DNA of 8,580 bases from NCBI GenBank assembly GCA_024655865.1, contig JANLFM010000041.1:1-8580 (forward strand). The letters are read 5' to 3'. Both the position numbers and the translations under genes were made by a program. The notes below the pieces were generated by a model that saw only the letters and a program-made list of their open reading frames with translations, was not told the origin of the DNA and searched no databases. This document shows, piece by piece, positions 1 through 7,965 of this stretch (positions are counted from its first letter, which is position 1; every line of letters starts with the position of its first letter). Origin of the DNA: Caldisericota bacterium. Its GTDB lineage: Bacteria; Caldisericota; JANLFM01.

Positions 1-11
1 GAAATTTCCAT
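1..11 (-). CDS. 5' end of an unidentified gene, cut by the window edge
   Basis: Only the first codons (Met-Glu-Ile) are inside the window. The start is supported by a perfect AGGAGGTGG ribosome binding site at 16-24, with the same spacing and the same surrounding sequence as the one in front of the 113-aa gene starting at 967. It is the fourth gene of the minus-strand operon that begins at 1349, separated from the DUF2922 gene by a hairpin-rich gap of about 290 bases. Nothing can be said about its product. Confidence 0.6.
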
Positions 12-66
12 TTTTCCACCTCCTTAGCTATGCCCCAGGGAAATGCTTCACATTTCCCTGGGGACC
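12..66 (-). promoter_or_regulatory. Structured translation leader, copy 1 (hairpin plus ribosome binding site)
   Basis: Read on the minus strand, this has a 13-bp perfect stem (33-45 with 51-63, 5-nt loop). It is followed by GGGGCAT, a short linker and AGGAGGTGG (16-24), then ATG at 11. It aligns without gaps to the leader at 968-1022. Stem positions that differ between the copies change in pairs (A-T to T-A, and G-C to A-T twice), which preserves the hairpin. A role in controlling translation or mRNA stability is inferred. Confidence 0.6.
33..63. repeat. Perfect 13-bp hairpin of the CCCC/GGGG family
   Basis: CCCCAGGGAAATG at 33-45 pairs with CATTTCCCTGGGG at 51-63 around a 5-nt loop. It lies 9 nt beyond the ribosome binding site of the partial gene. 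Confidence 0.85.
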
Positions 67-78
67 CCATTCCTGGGG
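65..78. repeat. Short hairpin CCCCA/TGGGG
   Basis: CCCCA (65-69) and TGGGG (74-78) form a 5-bp stem with a TTCC loop, one base away from the larger hairpin at 33-63. On its own it would be unremarkable. Confidence 0.5.
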
Positions 79-108
79 CAGATTCCTTTGCGGAAGCACG
101 CCTCCCCC

Positions 109-131
109 TTGAGGCTCTCACAGAGCCTCAA
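109..131. repeat. 10-bp hairpin
   Basis: TTGAGGCTCT (109-118) pairs with AGAGCCTCAA (122-131) over a 3-nt loop. CCCC at 105-108 and GGGG at 136-139 can extend the stem past a 4-nt bulge. Confidence 0.8.
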
Positions 132-152
132 TCAAGGGGCGGGATAGCGGGT

Positions 153-184
153 CCCTGGAAAAACGCGCAAGCGTTTTTCCAGGG
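153..184. repeat. Perfect 14-bp hairpin with tetraloop
   Basis: CCCTGGAAAAACGC (153-166) pairs with GCGTTTTTCCAGGG (171-184). The loop reads GCAA on the plus strand, a GNRA-type tetraloop, and TTGC on the minus strand. It shares the C-rich base and A-rich arm with the other hairpins of the region. Confidence 0.85.
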
Positions 185-215
185 TGCCTAACTCCGCCCC
201 TCTCCCCCATGACAT

Positions 216-242
216 CCAGGGAAAACATGCATTTTCCCCTGG
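216..242. repeat. Hairpin with one bulged base
   Basis: CCAGGGAAAA (216-225) pairs with TTTTCCCCTGG (232-242), leaving one unpaired C. The inner 6 nt form the loop. It belongs to the same CC(C)NGGRAAA family as its neighbours. Confidence 0.7.
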
Positions 243-260
243 AACCCCGCATACCTCTCA

Positions 261-278
261 GGAATTCCCTCGAATTCC
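261..278. repeat. 7-bp hairpin GGAATTC/GAATTCC
   Basis: GGAATTC (261-267) and GAATTCC (272-278) are separated by CCTC. It lies about 25 bases past the stop codon of the DUF2922 gene. Confidence 0.6.
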
Positions 279-303
279 CGGACCTTGTTTCCCTCGAGTC
301 TCC

Positions 304-528
304 TTAAGGCAGAAGCGGTGTGACTGTCGTTCCCGAGATGTAGGCCTCCTTGATCCCTGAAAGCTCCCCCGTGTTCGCCAGGATGATGTTCCTCTGAATG
401 ATGTTCTGCATCACCTGGGAAACCTCCTGGCTTGTGAGGTTCGCCTTGGGATCCCGGAGGGAGATGGTGTGCGTCCCACCTCCCTGAGTGGTGAAGACCA
501 GCTTCAGGTAAGTCCTGGTTTCCGCCAT
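304..528 (-). CDS. DUF2922 family protein
   Basis: This 74-aa protein has a Lys-Leu-x-Phe-x-Thr strand, a central Ser-Leu-Arg-Asp-Pro-Lys-x-Asn-Leu-Thr segment (about residues 23-32), then a helix running to Val-Met-Gln-Asn-Ile-Ile. That pattern is what I know from DUF2922, a small family of unknown function found mainly in Firmicutes. The length is normal for the family. The start ATG is preceded by AAGGAGAG at a suitable distance. It is the third gene of the minus-strand operon and accompanies a DUF1659 gene upstream, a pairing I recall from other Firmicutes genomes. No signal peptide or membrane segment is visible. The family call is from memory of the motif; the function is unknown. Confidence 0.85.
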   Translation of the reverse strand: MAETRTYLKLVFTTQGGGTHTISLRDPKANLTSQEVSQVMQNIIQRNIILANTGELSGIKEAYISGTTVTPLLP

Positions 529-625
529 CTTTTCTCTCCTTTCCTTTCTTTCCCTTCCCCCCGATATTTCCCCCTCCCCTTTTAAGGGTTCAAAGGGAGC
601 AGAAGCGGAGCAAAAAGGGAGTTAA
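529..625 (-). other. Intergenic gap with ribosome binding site for the DUF2922 gene
   Basis: These 97 bases hold a polypurine (minus-strand) stretch leading to AAGGAGAG ahead of ATG at 528. Unlike the gaps on either side, there is no long hairpin here, only a 5-bp CCCTT/AAGGG inverted repeat near 579-590. Confidence 0.5.
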
Positions 626-967
626 CTACTCCGTAGTAGGCGTGAAGGGAATCGCCGGAGTCTGCCACATGTGTCCCTTGGCCCACTGGATGAACTTTCC
701 CACATACAAGTTGAAGGCGCTCATGGGGCGGCCCGCAGCCTGAGCGGCAGCCTCCCATAAAGCCTTAGTCTGGGCGTCTTCCTGGTGCCACTGGTCCACA
801 GCAACAGCGAAGGCGTTCCTCACGTTGAGCTGCTCTGAAGTCCGGGGGTTAGTCGGGATCACGTGATTCCTCACATACCTGATCCCCTTCCACTTGGCGT
901 AGGTCAGCTGGTTGGCGTAAGTCCCGGATGCGTCAATGGACATCAATGGAGCGTATACCTTGGCCAT
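626..967 (-). CDS. Phage-like conserved hypothetical protein (113 aa)
   Basis: The ATG at 967 was chosen over an upstream in-frame ATG at 1009. A perfect AGGAGGTGG (972-980) lies 4 nt before it (7 nt counted from the AGGAGG core), and the upstream ATG falls inside a hairpin. Residues about 9-48 read Ser-x-Asp-Ala-Ser-Gly-Thr-Tyr, then Tyr-Ala-Lys-Trp-Lys-Gly, Tyr-Val-Arg and Ile-Pro-x-Asn-Pro-Arg-Thr. That resembles a family of short proteins I associate with phages and phage-derived operons (Lys-Trp-Lys-Gly followed by Val-Ile-Pro-x-Asn-Pro). The C-terminal half is helical and Ala/Trp-rich, with Ser-Ala-Phe-Asn-x-Tyr-Val near residue 83. The function is unknown. It is flanked by DUF1659 and DUF2922 genes in one operon, so a common role is likely but unproven. 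Confidence 0.75.
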   Translation of the reverse strand: MAKVYAPLMSIDASGTYANQLTYAKWKGIRYVRNHVIPTNPRTSEQLNVRNAFAVAVDQWHQEDAQTKALWEAAAQAAGRPMSAFNLYVGKFIQWAKGHMWQTPAIPFTPTTE

Positions 968-1022
968 CTTTCCACCTCCTTTCGAATGCCCCTGAAAAAT
1001 GTGGAACATTTTTCAGGGGACC
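968..1022 (-). promoter_or_regulatory. Structured translation leader, copy 2 (hairpin plus ribosome binding site)
   Basis: The layout matches the leader at 12-66: GTCCCC, hairpin, GGGGCAT, short linker, AGGAGGTGG (972-980), then ATG at 967. The stem is perfect for 14 bp (989-1002 with 1006-1019). The lengths are identical in both copies, and three of the four stem pairs nearest the CCCC base differ by compensatory changes. Confidence 0.65.
989..1019. repeat. Perfect 14-bp hairpin of the CCCC/GGGG family
   Basis: CCCCTGAAAAATGT (989-1002) pairs with ACATTTTTCAGGGG (1006-1019) over a 3-nt loop. No T-run follows on either strand. Confidence 0.9.
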
Positions 1023-1033
1023 CTCTATTGCCA

Positions 1034-1063
1034 CCCTGAGAAAGTCTCCCCCTTTTCTCAGGG
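1034..1063. repeat. 10-bp hairpin CCCTGAGAAA/TTTCTCAGGG
   Basis: The arms 1034-1043 and 1054-1063 are perfectly complementary around a 10-nt loop. The stem begins with CCCTG and has an A-rich inner end like the other hairpins. It lies between the DUF1659 gene and the leader at 968-1022. Confidence 0.8.
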
Positions 1064-1124
1064 GCCTGGCCTCCTTAATTCCGAAAAGACCCTTTAAAAC
1101 CAGAGGCCTTTTCCAGAGCCTTCC

Positions 1125-1349
1125 TTAACCCTCCAAGAGCTCCACTGTACTCACTACCTGCACGTCGACAAGCGGATAGAGGAGTAACCCGGCTACATCG
1201 TTGGCAGTAGTCAAGAGAGCATCCGCCGAAGCCTCGCTCTTCACCTTGGAGATGGAGAGGGATCCTATAATCACCTTCCCCGTCTCCGGATCGGTCCCCT
1301 TGTTCAGCTTCAGGGTGAGCCTCTTTCCTATTGGATTTTCAATTGCCAT
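1125..1349 (-). CDS. DUF1659 family protein
   Basis: This is a 74-aa protein. An N-terminal strand Lys-Arg-Leu-Thr-Leu-Lys-Leu-Asn-Lys-Gly is followed by Asp-Pro-Glu-Thr-Gly-Lys and a Ser-Leu-Ser-Ile-Ser-Lys-Val-Lys segment. The helical part is Ala-Asp-Ala-Leu-Leu-Thr-Thr-Ala-Asn-Asp-Val-Ala-Gly-Leu, near residues 42-55. This matches the DUF1659 pattern known from Bacillus and Clostridia; the function is unknown. The start has AAAGGAG upstream at a normal distance. It is the first gene after the promoter at 1460-1487, with a leader of about 100 nt, and heads an operon with the 113-aa and DUF2922 genes. The LexA box in the promoter suggests expression during DNA damage. Confidence 0.85.
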   Translation of the reverse strand: MAIENPIGKRLTLKLNKGTDPETGKVIIGSLSISKVKSEASADALLTTANDVAGLLLYPLVDVQVVSTVELLEG

Positions 1350-1459
1350 TTCCCTTTTCTCCTTTCCTTCCTTAAAAAGTTCCCCTAAAACAAAAACAGA
1401 GCCGACTTGCGCCGACCCTGTAGGGAGAAGCTTGGGGAGGCCTGCTTCCTGCCCCTTAC

Positions 1460-1487
1460 TTTAGAATATCGAACAAATGTTTGTCAA
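1460..1487 (-). promoter_or_regulatory. Promoter of the DUF1659/DUF2922 operon
   Basis: On the minus strand a consensus -35 TTGACA (1487-1482) and a -10 TCTAAA (1465-1460, 4 of 6 bases) are separated by 16 bp. Transcription would start near 1453, leaving a leader of about 100 nt before ATG at 1349. A LexA-like palindrome fills the spacer. Confidence 0.65.
1470..1483. promoter_or_regulatory. LexA (DinR) SOS box overlapping the promoter
   Basis: CGAACAAATGTTTG matches 13 of the 14 positions of the Gram-positive LexA/DinR consensus CGAACRNRYGTTYC; only the last base differs. It sits inside the promoter, touching the -35 and filling most of the spacer, where bound LexA would block RNA polymerase. 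Regulation is inferred from the sequence match and the position. Confidence 0.65.
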
Positions 1488-1496
1488 GAGGGTTTA

Positions 1497-1530
1497 AAGA
1501 GGTTCCTTTGACAGGTCAAAGGAACCTCTT
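1497..1530. terminator. 16-bp perfect inverted repeat, probable terminator or insulator
   Basis: AAGAGGTTCCTTTGAC (1497-1512) is repeated in reverse complement at 1515-1530, with 2 nt between the arms. On the minus strand the stem ends in CTCTTTAAA, a weak T-run. Its position between the DUF3800/putative-RNase operon and the promoter at 1487 fits a terminator that separates the two minus-strand units. A protein-binding palindrome is the alternative. Confidence 0.5.
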
Positions 1531-1599
1531 GTTTGGAGAGGATTCTACAAAATTTATTAGAGGTCAATGCAATCCACTGGGAAAAATTTTTTCAACTTA

Positions 1600-1628
1600 T
1601 TGACAAAAATAATAAAATAGTTCATATT
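1600..1628 (+). promoter_or_regulatory. Putative promoter of a short plus-strand RNA
   Basis: TTGACA (1600-1605) is followed after 17 bp by CATATT (1623-1628, 4 of 6 consensus bases). An alternative pairing is TTCAAC (1591-1596) with TAAAAT (1613-1618). The region is AT-rich, so chance matches are possible. What supports it is the intrinsic terminator only about 40 bp downstream. Confidence 0.4.
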
Positions 1629-1634
1629 TCAATT

Positions 1635-1695
1635 AGCTCATCTACCTAAGGTAGAAGGAGTTGGGCCGTCGCTCCGCGTCGGCCTTTTTCTTTTT
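1635..1695 (+). ncRNA. Candidate small RNA of about 60 nt converging on the putative-RNase gene
   Basis: Between the putative promoter and the terminator the RNA would hold a small hairpin (CTACC at 1642-1646 with GGTAG at 1650-1654), a single-stranded purine stretch AAGGAG, and the terminator stem. There is no open frame of useful length. Its last bases overlap the stop codon of the convergent 162-aa gene. It could be a regulatory RNA, a remnant of a longer transcription unit, or simply a terminator left over from a lost gene. Confidence 0.3.
1664..1695 (+). terminator. Intrinsic terminator, plus strand
   Basis: GGCCG (1664-1668) pairs with CGGCC (1680-1684), and CGC pairs with GCG inside it after one T-T mismatch, with a TCC loop. 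TTTTTCTTTTT follows directly at 1685-1695. The T-run exists only on the plus strand, so it ends rightward transcripts, although no plus-strand gene precedes it. Confidence 0.75.
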
Positions 1696-2182
1696 ATTGA
1701 ATGCGGTTTTTATATTTCTTAATTAATTTTTCCTTAAAATGTACATATTCAATCCAGAATGCAGTGACTAGCCTGCGTGTAGAATCCTGGTATTTTTTCA
1801 TTATTATTAAGTAATCGTAGTCCTTTAGCCAGATATAGGTTTTAATATCACCATTTCCTTCAAGATAGTCCCATGCTAATATTTCTGGTTCCTGGCAATT
1901 ATCAATCATTGCTCTTGCCCAAGGAAGGCGCTCGGCTCGCCTAGGGTCTGGAATTCTTCCTCCTTGTTTGCCTACCTCGTGGGATGTGAGATGCCAAAAT
2001 ATTATTTCTTTTCCGTTTTCTTTCTCCCGAAAGAACCATACAGAATTCCCTTGGTAATAAACATGATTCTCAAGGAAGTCTCTTCGGAAAATCTGATATA
2101 GAAGGTCATAGGTCTTATCTGTCCATGGATTTACTGGAAACATATCTGGTAACCATGCAGGATAGAGATTGCTCATCATCAT
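1694..2182 (-). CDS. Putative RNase/toxin of the phage P1-related (BECR-like) family
   Basis: The product is 162 aa when started at ATG 2182. That start overlaps the stop of the DUF3800 gene as ATGA, a sign of translational coupling. A TTG at 2224 in the same frame is a weaker choice. Two further ATG codons follow at once, and GAGG lies 8 nt before the third. Visible motifs are Phe-Trp-His-Leu (residues 62-65), Arg-Arg-Ala-Glu-Arg-Leu-Pro-Trp-Ala-Arg (81-90), Ile-Trp-Leu-Lys-Asp-Tyr-Asp-Tyr-Leu (117-125) and Thr-Ala-Phe near 140, with a basic Lys-rich tail. I recall this order from proteins labelled phage P1-related and from phage-type barnase/EndoU/colicin E5/RelE-like nucleases. RNA cleavage is inferred; conserved His and Arg residues are plausible catalytic ones. 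It could instead be the regulator of the upstream gene. Confidence 0.6.
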   Translation of the reverse strand: MMMSNLYPAWLPDMFPVNPWTDKTYDLLYQIFRRDFLENHVYYQGNSVWFFREKENGKEIIFWHLTSHEVGKQGGRIPDPRRAERLPWARAMIDNCQEPEILAWDYLEGNGDIKTYIWLKDYDYLIIMKKYQDSTRRLVTAFWIEYVHFKEKLIKKYKNRIQ

Positions 2183-2997: not shown

Positions 2998-3033
2998 GAG
3001 TTTATAAGTGAAAGGTCTTTTACTTATAAACTC
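2998..3033. repeat. 17-bp inverted repeat between divergent genes
   Basis: GAGTTTATAAGTGAAAG (2998-3014) pairs with CTTTTACTTATAAACTC (3017-3033), including one G-T pair, with only 2 nt between the arms. It lies between the DUF3800 promoter and the promoter of the 218-aa gene and has no T-run. A protein operator or a recombination site fits better than a terminator. Confidence 0.6.
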
Positions 3034-4477: not shown

Positions 4478-4486
4478 TAATTGAAA

Positions 4487-4702
4487 ATGAAAAGACTAAG
4501 AAGGTACATTGCAAAAGCTGGGAGCAAATCAAATATACGGAATAAGGCTATTGAACCCACCGACGAGCAGTATTCTTTCTTGAAGGAGAAAGCTCTGGAG
4601 CTTCAGAAGCAGAATCAGAACGCCTCCATCGTCTCCATCATCCGGGACCTGATTGAGAAGGATCGGCAAAAATGGGCAAAAGAGAATAAGGAAAAGCGGT
4701 GA
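4487..4702 (+). CDS. Small ribbon-helix-helix-like regulator preceding the restriction-modification genes
   Basis: This is a 71-aa basic protein. After a Lys/Arg-rich start, residues about 20-61 read Asn-Lys-Ala-Ile-Glu-Pro-Thr-Asp-Glu-Gln-Tyr, then a helix Phe-Leu-Lys-Glu-Lys-Ala, then Ala-Ser-Ile-Val-Ser-Ile-Ile-Arg-Asp-Leu-Ile-Glu-Lys. That is the strand-helix-turn-helix order of CopG/Arc-type DNA-binding proteins. The ATG at 4487 is chosen over an in-frame TTG at 4481. There is no ribosome binding site, consistent with a leaderless start. Its stop overlaps the GTG start of the methyltransferase gene. By position it probably controls expression of the operon, replacing the helix-turn-helix C protein of many type II systems. 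An antitoxin-like role is an alternative. The fold is inferred from the pattern only. Confidence 0.65.
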   Translation: MKRLRRYIAKAGSKSNIRNKAIEPTDEQYSFLKEKALELQKQNQNASIVSIIRDLIEKDRQKWAKENKEKR

Positions 4703-6588
4703 GGATGACTGGCATGCAGGGCAACCAAAAAATTAACACAAATCTCCTTGACAGAATTTTCCGGGACCCTGAGACTAGGCACGGCCTAAAGATTTTTGAA
4801 TCCTCCGAACTTGGAAAGCTCGAGCTTACCGAAGATGACGGTAAAGTCTATGTCAAGTGTGCTGTCACCGGCAAGAAACGACTGGCCAAGCCCGAAGAGA
4901 TTATCCGCCAACTTACCGTTTACAAGCTTACCGCCGACCTCCACTATCCACTGAGCCGGATTGATATTGAGGTTCCCATCAAAATGGGGTCGGCCTATGC
5001 CAGCAAAAAGGCCGATGTGGTGGTCTACAAAGAAGATACCAAGCTGACCCTTCAAATCATCATCGAAGTTAAGAAGCCCCTTCGCAAGGATGGTCTGGAG
5101 CAGTTACATTCCTACATGAACGCCACGGGGGTTTACTACGGAGGCTGGATCAATGGCAATGATGCCGTCTATCAATTGCGCATTGAACCGAATCTCTTCG
5201 AGGAGCTTCAGCGGCTTCCCGCTGTGAATGAAGACCTTGACGATGTCAAGACGCCCATCAAGAAGAATCAGCTCAAGCCGATCCACAATCTCAAGGAGGA
5301 GGTCCAGTACTTAGAAAACACTGTCTTGGCCAATGCAGGCGTATCGGCCTTCGAGGAGATCTTCAAACTGATCTTCGCTAAGCTCTACGACGAATTCAAT
5401 AAAGCGGATGACGAGCCAATGGAGTTTCGAACTACGACTGCTACCCCGCAGGAGCAGTACAAACGGCTTAATGGACTTTTCAAGAAAGCATCCGGCGAGT
5501 GGTCCGACATCTTCTCCGGCGCTGACAATATAGAACTCACCCCAGAAGCCCTGATCGCTGTGGCCTCAGCCTTTCAAACTAAGAAATTCTTTGACGCCGA
5601 CCTCGACGTGATGGACGCTGCCTTCGAGTACATGATTAACCCGGAGCAGAAGGGGGATAAAGGCCAGTACTTCACTCCTCGTCCGGTAGTCAAGATGTGC
5701 GTTAAGATGCTCAACCCCAAGCCCGAGGAGCGGGTGCTTGACCCCGCCTGCGGCCCTGGTGGGTTTCTCATCCATTCCCTCCACTGGGTGTTTGAGCGCT
5801 ATCTCAAGCTGCGCTTCCAGAACAATCTTGCCAAACGGAAGTTCGACTATGCCAATTCTCGGTTGTTCGGGATTGATTTTGACCCACGGCTTTCACGAGT
5901 AGCCAAGGCGATGATGCTGATTGCGGGTGATGGCCGGAGTAATGTTTACCGCGTCAATTCTCTCGACCCAAGGGAATGGAAGAACCGAACGGACGGCCTT
6001 GTGGGGGCGGTCCAGGATGGAAGATTTGACATTGTGATGACAAATCCCCCTTTCGCAGGCAATATTTCCCAGCCGGAAATCCTAGGTTGTTATGACCTTG
6101 CCTACAAAGGCGATCATACGAAGCACAAGCGCGTTAATAAGCTGACTCGAGATGTGCTTTTTATCGAGCGGTGTTTGAGATTTTTGAAACCCGGTGGCCG
6201 CATGGCGATTGTCCTGCCTCAGGGCAACCTGAACAACACTAATGCTGAGTACATCCGTACCTGGGTTATGGATAAGGCCCGTATCTTGGCGGTAGTGGGC
6301 CTCCACGTTAATACTTTCAAGCCCTTCACCGGCACCAAAACGAGCGTTCTCTTTCTTCAGAAATGGGCCGAGAATGAAGAACCCGATCAGGATTATCCCA
6401 TTTTCCTGGCGGTCAATGAGAAGCCGGTCAAAGACAACAGCGGCAGCTATGTTTTTAAAAAGAACCCCGACGGTTCCTATGTTACCGACGCGCAGGGGAA
6501 GCGCATCATAGACCACGACCTGGACGATATAACCGAGGGTTTCATTGAATTTGCCCAGGAACAGGGTTTTGACTTCTGGAGGACATAA
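4699..6588 (+). CDS. Restriction-modification fusion: PD-(D/E)XK nuclease plus N6-adenine DNA methyltransferase
   Basis: This is a 629-aa protein. The N-terminal part (about residues 60-175) resembles the HsdR N-terminal nuclease domain: Ala-Asp106-Val-Val-Val-Tyr, then Ile-Ile-Glu123-Val-Lys125-Lys-Pro, then Leu-Glu-Gln-Leu-His-Ser-Tyr. These are the D...ExK residues of a PD-(D/E)XK nuclease with a following Q motif. A helical linker leads to an HsdM-type domain: Gly-Gln-Tyr-Phe-Thr-Pro (322-327), motif I Asp-Pro-Ala-Cys-Gly-Pro-Gly-Gly-Phe (348-356), Gly-Ile-Asp-Phe-Asp-Pro (391-396), and catalytic Asn-Pro-Pro-Phe (449-452). It should methylate adenine and cut DNA in one chain, guided by the S subunit encoded 3 nt downstream. 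The length is close to that of BcgI subunit A (637 aa as I recall). GTG 4699 overlaps the previous stop; ATG 4705 or 4714 are possible starts. Confidence 0.9.
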   Translation: MRMTGMQGNQKINTNLLDRIFRDPETRHGLKIFESSELGKLELTEDDGKVYVKCAVTGKKRLAKPEEIIRQLTVYKLTADLHYPLSRIDIEVPIKMGSAYASKKADVVVYKEDTKLTLQIIIEVKKPLRKDGLEQLHSYMNATGVYYGGWINGNDAVYQLRIEPNLFEELQRLPAVNEDLDDVKTPIKKNQLKPIHNLKEEVQYLENTVLANAGVSAFEEIFKLIFAKLYDEFNKADDEPMEFRTTTATPQEQYKRLNGLFKKASGEWSDIFSGADNIELTPEALIAVASAFQTKKFFDADLDVMDAAFEYMINPEQKGDKGQYFTPRPVVKMCVKMLNPKPEERVLDPACGPGGFLIHSLHWVFERYLKLRFQNNLAKRKFDYANSRLFGIDFDPRLSRVAKAMMLIAGDGRSNVYRVNSLDPREWKNRTDGLVGAVQDGRFDIVMTNPPFAGNISQPEILGCYDLAYKGDHTKHKRVNKLTRDVLFIERCLRFLKPGGRMAIVLPQGNLNNTNAEYIRTWVMDKARILAVVGLHVNTFKPFTGTKTSVLFLQKWAENEEPDQDYPIFLAVNEKPVKDNSGSYVFKKNPDGSYVTDAQGKRIIDHDLDDITEGFIEFAQEQGFDFWRT

Positions 6589-6591
6589 CCA

Positions 6592-7965
6592 ATGGCGGTC
6601 TGGTCTATCGTGAAAGTGTCGGAACTTTACACTGGGAGGCGCCTCGGGGCGGAATTCTATCATCTTGATAAGTTAAGAGCACTCGGATTGCTTAGAAGCC
6701 GGTCTTTACATTACGTTCAGGATTCTTTCGCTCACGTACGTAGAATCCTCAATACGTCAACAGCAGAGCCCGGGTTTGCTGTTCCCACATTTGTCTTCGA
6801 TCTGTCGGATATAGAGGCTCATTTCCTCGGCGAGGGATTGCGAGTGAGTGGCCCTGCTGAAATTGGTAGCGCCAAGAAGATTTTTAAGTCGGGAGACGTT
6901 GTGATCTCTCGACTCCGGCCATACCTTCATGAGATTGCCTTTGCTGACCATGACGGAATGCTCCTTGGGTCAACCGAATTCATAGTTCTTCGGCAGAAAA
7001 AGGGATCGGACATTCCTGCGGAATTTCTCTTTGTTTTCCTGATGACAAAAGAAGTTCAGAACGTTCTTCTCTGGAGCCAGGAGGGAACCAATCATCCCAG
7101 ATTCCCAGAAAGTGTTCTCCTTGAGATTCCGCTGCCAAAGCCAGATGAGTCTACGATGACACAGGTTATTGAACTGGTACGGAAGGCCAACCAAGCTTTT
7201 CGCAACTCGCGGGAAAGTTATCTCCAAGCCGAGCGGATGGTGCTGGAGGAGATCGGGCGGGACAAGCTTGACCTTTCCCAACCAAAGTGGTGGACAGTAT
7301 CCCTCTCCAGGGCGCAAGCGGGTCACCGTATCGACGCCGAGCACTTCCAACCTAAATACGATAAACTTATAGCCCACTTGAAGAAGAAAGGGAAGGTGAA
7401 ACGAATCCATGATCTTCTGTCGGAGCCGATCCAAAAGGGTGTTACCCCAGAATACAATCTCGATGGTTCCATTGTAGTTGTAAACAGCCAGCATCTGGGC
7501 CGATACTGCCTGAACTTTGAGGCAACAGATCGCACAACTGAGACTTTTTGGAAAACCAACAGGCGAGCGCAGATATGTCCAAATGATGTGATGATCTACG
7601 CCACCGGAGCATATATTGGACGAGCTAATGCCTACTTGGAAACGGCCCGCGCCCTTGCTGGGGTGGACATCCTTTTAGTGAGGCCAACTGGCGAATGTAA
7701 TCCCCTATACCTCGCCGTATTCCTAAATGCCCCACCCGGTCTCATGCAGTCAAGGATGTTCGCCAGCGGGTCAGGTCAGGCTCATATTTACCCAGAAGAT
7801 GTTTCCTGCTATTGGGTGTTCTTACCATCGGGGAATTTCCAACAGCGGATAGCCGACCTGGTGCGGCAATCCTACCAAGCTCGCCAGAAAGCCAAGGTTC
7901 TTTTGGAGGAAGCTAAGGCAAAGGTAGAAGCGCTCATTGAAGGAAGGGGGATTAACCTATGCTAA
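6592..7965 (+). CDS. hsdS: Restriction-modification specificity subunit (HsdS-like, two target recognition domains)
   Basis: This is a 457-aa protein built from two similar halves. Each half opens with a related motif: Arg-Leu-Gly-Ala-Glu-Phe-Tyr at 17-23 and Arg-Ile-Asp-Ala-Glu-His-Phe at 246-252. Each contains a strand near Gly-Asp-Val-Val-Ile-Ser-Arg-Leu (101-108) or Asn-Asp-Val-Met-Ile-Tyr (331-336). Each ends in a helical conserved region (about 191-222 and 417-451). This is the usual duplicated layout of specificity subunits, with each target recognition domain reading one half of a bipartite site. The start ATG has GGAGG (6578-6582) at a 9-nt spacing and lies 3 nt after the methyltransferase stop, so the two are co-translated. 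It should guide both cleavage and methylation by the fusion partner. The recognised sequence cannot be read from the protein. Confidence 0.9.
   Translation: MAVWSIVKVSELYTGRRLGAEFYHLDKLRALGLLRSRSLHYVQDSFAHVRRILNTSTAEPGFAVPTFVFDLSDIEAHFLGEGLRVSGPAEIGSAKKIFKSGDVVISRLRPYLHEIAFADHDGMLLGSTEFIVLRQKKGSDIPAEFLFVFLMTKEVQNVLLWSQEGTNHPRFPESVLLEIPLPKPDESTMTQVIELVRKANQAFRNSRESYLQAERMVLEEIGRDKLDLSQPKWWTVSLSRAQAGHRIDAEHFQPKYDKLIAHLKKKGKVKRIHDLLSEPIQKGVTPEYNLDGSIVVVNSQHLGRYCLNFEATDRTTETFWKTNRRAQICPNDVMIYATGAYIGRANAYLETARALAGVDILLVRPTGECNPLYLAVFLNAPPGLMQSRMFASGSGQAHIYPEDVSCYWVFLPSGNFQQRIADLVRQSYQARQKAKVLLEEAKAKVEALIEGRGINLC

Follow-up and report, generated by a model that had tools for sequence, protein, structure and literature searches.

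Leader hairpins of a Caldisericota cassette as probable copies of a dispersed, tagged REP-like repeat

The cassette and its leader hairpins

The window (the whole stretch of 8,580 nucleotides analysed, from a Caldisericota bacterium) contains a DUF1659 / DUF6266-like / DUF2922 cassette with two similar leaders on the minus strand, at 12-66 and 968-1022. For the gene that follows the 968-1022 leader, the match to DUF6266 stays below the cut-off. The gene that follows the 12-66 leader codes for an 85-aa protein that has no family match and an apparent membrane segment; it runs on into contig C20, which shares 55 bases with the window; the next gene encodes an amidase with an SLH domain, whose product matches phage endolysin families. 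The contig break (window 1-55) lies inside leader copy 1, and since C20 begins with the same 55 bases, it represents an assembly overlap in repeated sequence. Paralogous cassettes are found on contigs C39 and C42, with partial ones on C13 and C34. The DUF1659 / DUF6266-like / DUF2922 / 85-aa protein / amidase-SLH cassette is multi-copy (L009 45-1191; L010 4960-7100; L011 4000-6640) and resembles a lysis-type module or one of phage origin. Within its promoter-like site, at 1470-1483, lies an exact LexA/DinR-type box, CGAACAAATGTTTG; it had no matches in 200 shuffles of the window and is kept in four cassette paralogues, which makes SOS control of the cassette a possibility. The window also carries type I restriction-modification genes at 4481-7965: behind a small ORF come an HsdM-like gene, whose product matches HSDR_N_2 at its N terminus, and an HsdS-like gene. 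The features of the leaders and their surroundings are as follows.

19-24, minus strand: Shine-Dalgarno (SD) sequence AGGAGG of the 85-aa protein gene, recognised from sequence, with its ATG at 9-11
28-68, minus strand: repeat copy 1, with tag GGGGT at 64-68, hairpin at 33-63 and 3' flank CATAG
148-189, plus strand: repeat copy 3, a perfect hairpin of 14 bp nested between GGGGCGG and CCGCCCC arms
216-242, minus strand: probable degenerate copy, preceded by GGGGT; direct repeat; folding z-score -2.6; not reported by the models
975-980, minus strand: SD sequence AGGAGG of the DUF6266-like gene, recognised in the same way, with its ATG at 965-967
984-1024, minus strand: repeat copy 2, with tag AGGGT at 1020-1024, hairpin at 989-1019 and 3' flank CATTC
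1034-1063, minus strand: probable degenerate copy adjoining copy 2; 11 bp, loop of 8; folding z-score -1.9; not reported by the models
1458-1487, minus strand: promoter-like TTGACA-18-TAAAGT of the cassette; four cassette copies retain it

An earlier note, made from the sequence of the window, had described a gapless alignment of the two leaders up to the ATG, a perfect stem of at least 13 bp and three stem differences that are all compensated, and each of these observations was borne out. The alignment of 8-67 with 964-1023 spans 60 nt at 75% identity. The hairpin of copy 1, which separates the intergenic region from the SD of the 85-aa protein gene, has 13 perfect pairs and a loop of 5, its 14th pair being T.G, and that of copy 2, upstream of the DUF6266-like gene, has 14 perfect pairs and a loop of 3. 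Between the copies, the compensated pairs are A-T/T-A, G-C/A-T and G-C/A-T, and the innermost pair shows a one-sided change only (T.G/T-A). Folding z-scores of the leaders were -3.7 and -3.2; no shuffled sequence out of 200 was equally stable, and the hairpin leaves the SD unobstructed in both folds. An Rfam scan of window positions 1-1800 returned no family at gathering score, all matches lying far below it.

Two covariance models were used to follow these hairpins, R1 built from eight hairpins of the genus of this genome and R2 built solely from 39 distinct copies of a Stahlbacteria metagenome-assembled genome (MAG), G069. Copies 1 and 2, both of which belong to the R1 training set, were retrieved by R1 with E-values of 1.4e-15 and 1.1e-13, and by the Stahlbacteria-only model R2 with E-values of 4e-11 (51 bits) and 3.3e-4, respectively. 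Copy 3, which like the degenerate hairpins at 216-242 and 1034-1063 had not been listed by the earlier note, lies outside the training set and was found by R1 (E 2.8e-6) and R2 (E 6e-4). The window further contains long inverted repeats at 1497-1530 and 2998-3033 (16-17 bp, 2-nt loops) whose sequence is unrelated to the tagged repeat. Short iterated units, AAGCGGAG / CTCCGCTT, occur near several hairpin copies (window 597-620; L012 16990-17020; L040 1470-1500), and similar units occur at other places in the congener.

The earlier note had offered chance or a recent duplication as the outcome that would undo its proposal. The 75% identity of the leaders over 60 nt would suit chance similarity or a recent duplication of one leader within the operon, an origin that is nevertheless contradicted by the unrelated flanking genes, by the three compensated stem pairs and by a family that extends genome-wide and into another phylum, so that we give it scarcely any credence.

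Distribution of the repeat and its presence or absence at individual sites

An exact search with the leader pattern matched only the two leaders in this genome, which is why a covariance model was needed. A covariance search with R1 located about 18 places in the genome at E<=0.01 (some 18-19 copies), mostly away from start codons. Among relatives, R1 found eight copies in the congener G001, also a Caldisericota MAG; a different genus of the family gave a single weak match, and the other relatives sampled almost none. The earlier note had looked to Clostridia for relatives; as far as can be judged, the organism is not one of them. The copies lie between unrelated genes, at CRISPR arrays, and in tandem or inverted pairs; by gene names read from translations, the intergenic settings include aminotransferase/glyoxalase-like, tsaB-like/sigma-factor-like and kinase-like/EamA-like pairs. 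At CRISPR arrays of G001, inverted pairs about 55-60 nt apart stand beside the repeats of the array. In both this genome and its congener the repeat, frequently arranged as an inverted pair, occupies a spacer position or an array end, beside or between CRISPR repeats (L014 2632-2751; L017 884-1617; L019 1506-1536). The copy number in this genome is low for a REP, and the tags vary (AGGGT, GGGTT, GGCCC), so some of these copies are possibly only distantly related.

Five copies of the genome lie directly before an SD, all of them in paralogues of the one cassette, where the hairpins come and go between junctions. Before the DUF6266-like gene, C35 has hairpins, C39 passes from DUF1659 to the SD with only a few bases between them, and C42 shows filler of unrelated sequence. 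Hairpins precede the 85-aa protein gene in C35 and C42 (several in C42, mostly degenerate) and not in C39, and before the DUF1659 gene, C42 and C13 have one hairpin each, C35 and C39 none. The leaders of C39 are otherwise similar, yet lack both leader hairpins. A comparison of orthologous sites was made with one congener, in which two sites could be aligned and a third, that of the copy on C44, could not: in the tsaB-sigma and aminotransferase-glyoxalase intergenic regions of G001, both sides align and the hairpin is absent. At the copy of G001 next to an M28-peptidase gene, the upstream gene content differs from that of the present genome. The hairpins are optional units at these sites. Copies are gained or lost at intergenic sites, and presence or absence fits insertion or precise loss alike.

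These observations bear on the proposal of the earlier note that the leaders form a selected cis-regulatory RNA, possibly an mRNA stabiliser. The paired structure itself proved real, is kept across a wider family and covaries far above controls (see below), but the notion of an operon-specific element did not hold, because most copies lie elsewhere, C39 has neither leader hairpin, two sites of the congener are empty and the orientation to flanking genes in Stahlbacteria is mixed. Similarly, further copies directly before SDs do exist, as the note had anticipated before start codons, but only in paralogues of the same cassette. We regard a selected cis-regulatory or mRNA-stabilising leader, including a repeat copy that was put to use, as unlikely. 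Such a leader would agree with the five copies before SDs, with the SD left free in both folds and with reports of REPs as mRNA stabilisers in other bacteria (PMC3733652, PMC6006769). It is difficult to reconcile with the location of most copies and with the paralogous leaders, among which the structure is variable: C39 lacks both hairpins, and C35 lacks the DUF1659 hairpin of C42 and C13.

We consider it highly probable that the two leader hairpins are copies of a dispersed, tagged REP-like repeat and not required parts of the leaders. Five copies before SDs exceed what random intergenic landing would give, which counts against this explanation, though all of them belong to paralogues of one cassette. 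Copies would have landed just upstream of the ribosome-binding sites in several paralogues of the LexA-box cassette, where they are probably transcribed and able to fold, and they may incidentally affect mRNA stability. As a warning of more general use, two leaders in the same operon may covary because they hold copies of a dispersed palindromic repeat and not because they form a riboregulator.

The repeat reaches beyond Caldisericota. A pattern scan that covered 84,980 species, with a single genome per species, led to G069, a member of another phylum with about 50 copies, and R2, built from this genome alone, detects not only copy 1 of the window (28-68) but many other copies of the present genome. 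Of the 147 genomes in the phylum of G069, 11 had R2 matches and 136 had none; among the carriers, seven had at least 40-47 matches, with about 44 candidates scored per genome, and two had 28 and 16. In the Burkholderiales family of G061, matches occurred in one genome of 120 and in none of the other 119, from which we conclude that the repeat is rare in that family. The zero counts in most genomes indicate that R2 rarely fires by chance. Pattern matches in Flavonifractor, Oscillospiraceae and Ruminococcus relatives were left out: what they have in common is the GGGGTYCCC...GGGG frame, itself a requirement of the search pattern, and they may belong to another family. The census rests on capped model searches and on MAGs, which are incomplete, the ORF calls for Stahlbacteria are crude, and the Stahlbacteria copy sets were selected by tag.

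Several other repeats were observed alongside these scans. In L201 (2009-2075), some 25 additional bases split the stem of a repeat copy, apparently as an insertion into the repeat. In Stahlbacteria (L149, L150, L142, L136), many copies are followed by (G)TGGACAAAAG-like iterations, which constitute a second repeat family. The viral contig L100 (7072-8001) contains several near-identical in-frame duplications, two with a GGGGTCCCC-type hairpin, a sequence also found in a Flavonifractor plautii contig (L095).

Anatomy, covariation and strand polarity

The element consists, in order, of an unpaired GGGGT, a CCCC foot, a variable stem, a GGGG foot and T(A/G), often followed by AAAA. The hairpin measures 31 nt, its CCCC/GGGG foot is near-invariant and the loop region often reads CGAAGC; tag, length and foot are conserved, and the stem varies but stays complementary. 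GGGGT precedes the foot in most copies obtained with models that do not demand the tag, and is looser in the present genome; the Stahlbacteria sets were chosen with the tag, so its invariance there is partly built in. Some copies stand in tandem on the same strand at a spacing of 45-46 nt, and their stems differ.

Stem covariation among the 39 distinct Stahlbacteria copies amounted to 0.560, against a mean of 0.237 for shuffled sets, a value reached in none of 500 shuffles, and to at most 0.133 when the pairing partner was slid. For eight copies of the genus of this genome it was 0.329 against 0.179 after shuffling (0/500). Covariation is here a property of the dispersed repeat class and, alone, no proof of selection on these two mRNAs. 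Pairing irregularities are distributed unevenly between the strands: the tagged strand of the Stahlbacteria copies has 42 G.T against 3 A.C, mainly owing to a G.T just above the foot. With that pair left out, the counts are 12 against 3 (6 against 0 in G128). Of two sets of 46 and 40 copies, 29 and 27 have the G.T just above the foot; further up the stem, G.A mismatches are recurrent.

Perfect short-loop palindromes are a known substrate of template-switch correction, by which quasi-palindromes are made perfect during replication. The compensatory changes might then have arisen without selection for pairing, both arms being matched in one step with no function needed, and such correction is compatible with the repeat explanation as a source of stem variation. 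Full correction, however, would erase the persistent G.T pairs and the recurrent G.A mismatches, and the conservation of tag and foot exceeds what correction explains; as an account of the compensated stems it appears improbable to us.

The Stahlbacteria copies show no preference for the orientation of flanking genes (8 ++, 9 --, 10 convergent and 6 divergent). In G069, eight of 48 copies fall inside a crude ORF call and the remainder are intergenic. Eleven Stahlbacteria copies have a stop codon 3-8 nt away, a position that, together with the G+C-rich foot and the stable hairpin, might point to intrinsic transcription terminators. We judge this very improbable, given that neither leader hairpin has a T run on either strand or is called by a terminator scan, that the usual 3' tail is TAAAA, and that the two leader copies stand directly before SDs within the cassette. 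Strand polarity and indifference to the direction of transcription would suit recognition of a folded single-stranded DNA better than a role in mRNA. For the dispersed repeat, the most likely course would be folding of the tagged strand whenever it becomes single-stranded, after which a strand-specific enzyme would cut and join it, as TnpA-REP does for GTAG REPs.

The mobiliser question and comparison with known repeats

REPs are palindromes of 20-50 nt that follow a tag, most often GTAG, and of which TnpA-REP recognises one strand (PMC8266576; PMC6006769). The present repeat agrees with this broad plan, as a dispersed intergenic palindrome with an unpaired, one-sided tag that is present or absent between relatives. 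Mobilisation by the Y1 (RAYT/TIRYT-type) transposases of the genome itself would be conceivable, with a tag and hairpin on the REP plan, two Y1 genes in this genome and one in the congener. We find it very doubtful: neither Y1 locus of this genome has a match to the repeat, and the carriers G069, G115 and G116 gave no Y1 match, which is to be read with their incompleteness as MAGs and with the partial coverage of TnpA-REP by PF01797. One of the two Y1 genes is instead flanked by AAAAATAGGGACAGTCCCTATTTTT palindromes in a TIRYT-like arrangement (L029 1190-1214, 1887-1911, 2188-2210). Where other carriers have Y1 genes, these are accompanied by different flanking repeats and stand at a distance of several hundred bases or more from the present repeat. 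The mobilising enzyme is thus probably other than a Y1/RAYT transposase, and the high-copy Stahlbacteria genomes are one place to seek it.

Searches of open-access full text for the GGGGT tag sequence yielded nothing relevant among the matches listed, and the same was true of Stahlbacteria palindromes and Caldisericota palindromes. The tag GGGGT was not encountered in the REP classes checked. The repeat resembles a REP and probably works like one, without demonstrated membership in the GTAG or CGTC class. More tentatively, and with somewhat less than even confidence, it may represent a third tagged-REP superfamily that Caldisericota share with Stahlbacteria and a few Burkholderiales, that has multiplied in some Stahlbacteria and that moves in the form of folded single-stranded DNA through an enzyme other than Y1/RAYT. 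It would add a tag class to the REPs and, like the CGTC REPs, looks orphan, with high copy number in a few Stahlbacteria genomes.

With GTAG REPs, BIMEs and REPINs, the repeat shares a hairpin with an unpaired 5' tag on one strand, an intergenic and dispersed location, single or paired occurrence, and a pairing irregularity kept on the tagged strand (PMC8266576). It does not belong to the RAYT-associated GTAG REPs, since its tag is GGGGT and not GTAG or GTGG and no cognate Y1 gene is closely flanked by it. CGTC-tagged REPs form a second superfamily, spread over several phyla without a known transposase (PMC3733652). What the repeat has in common with them is a tagged palindrome that is distributed across phyla and for which no dedicated transposase is known, but tag (GGGGT), stem length (13-14 bp, against 8-9) and 3' flank (T(A/G)A-rich, against CCA) all differ, which places the repeat outside this class as well. 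Terminal inverted repeats of TIRYTs, with their GGGGWSAS motif, likewise have GGGG in palindromes; GGGGTCCC falls outside GGGGWSAS, and the repeat does not closely flank Y1 genes. Finally, a hairpin that precedes an SD inside a cassette recalls the intercistronic mRNA-stabilising REP hairpins of E. coli; for the present repeat an effect on RNA is putative, and it differs in that window 1-1800 has no Rfam family at gathering score.
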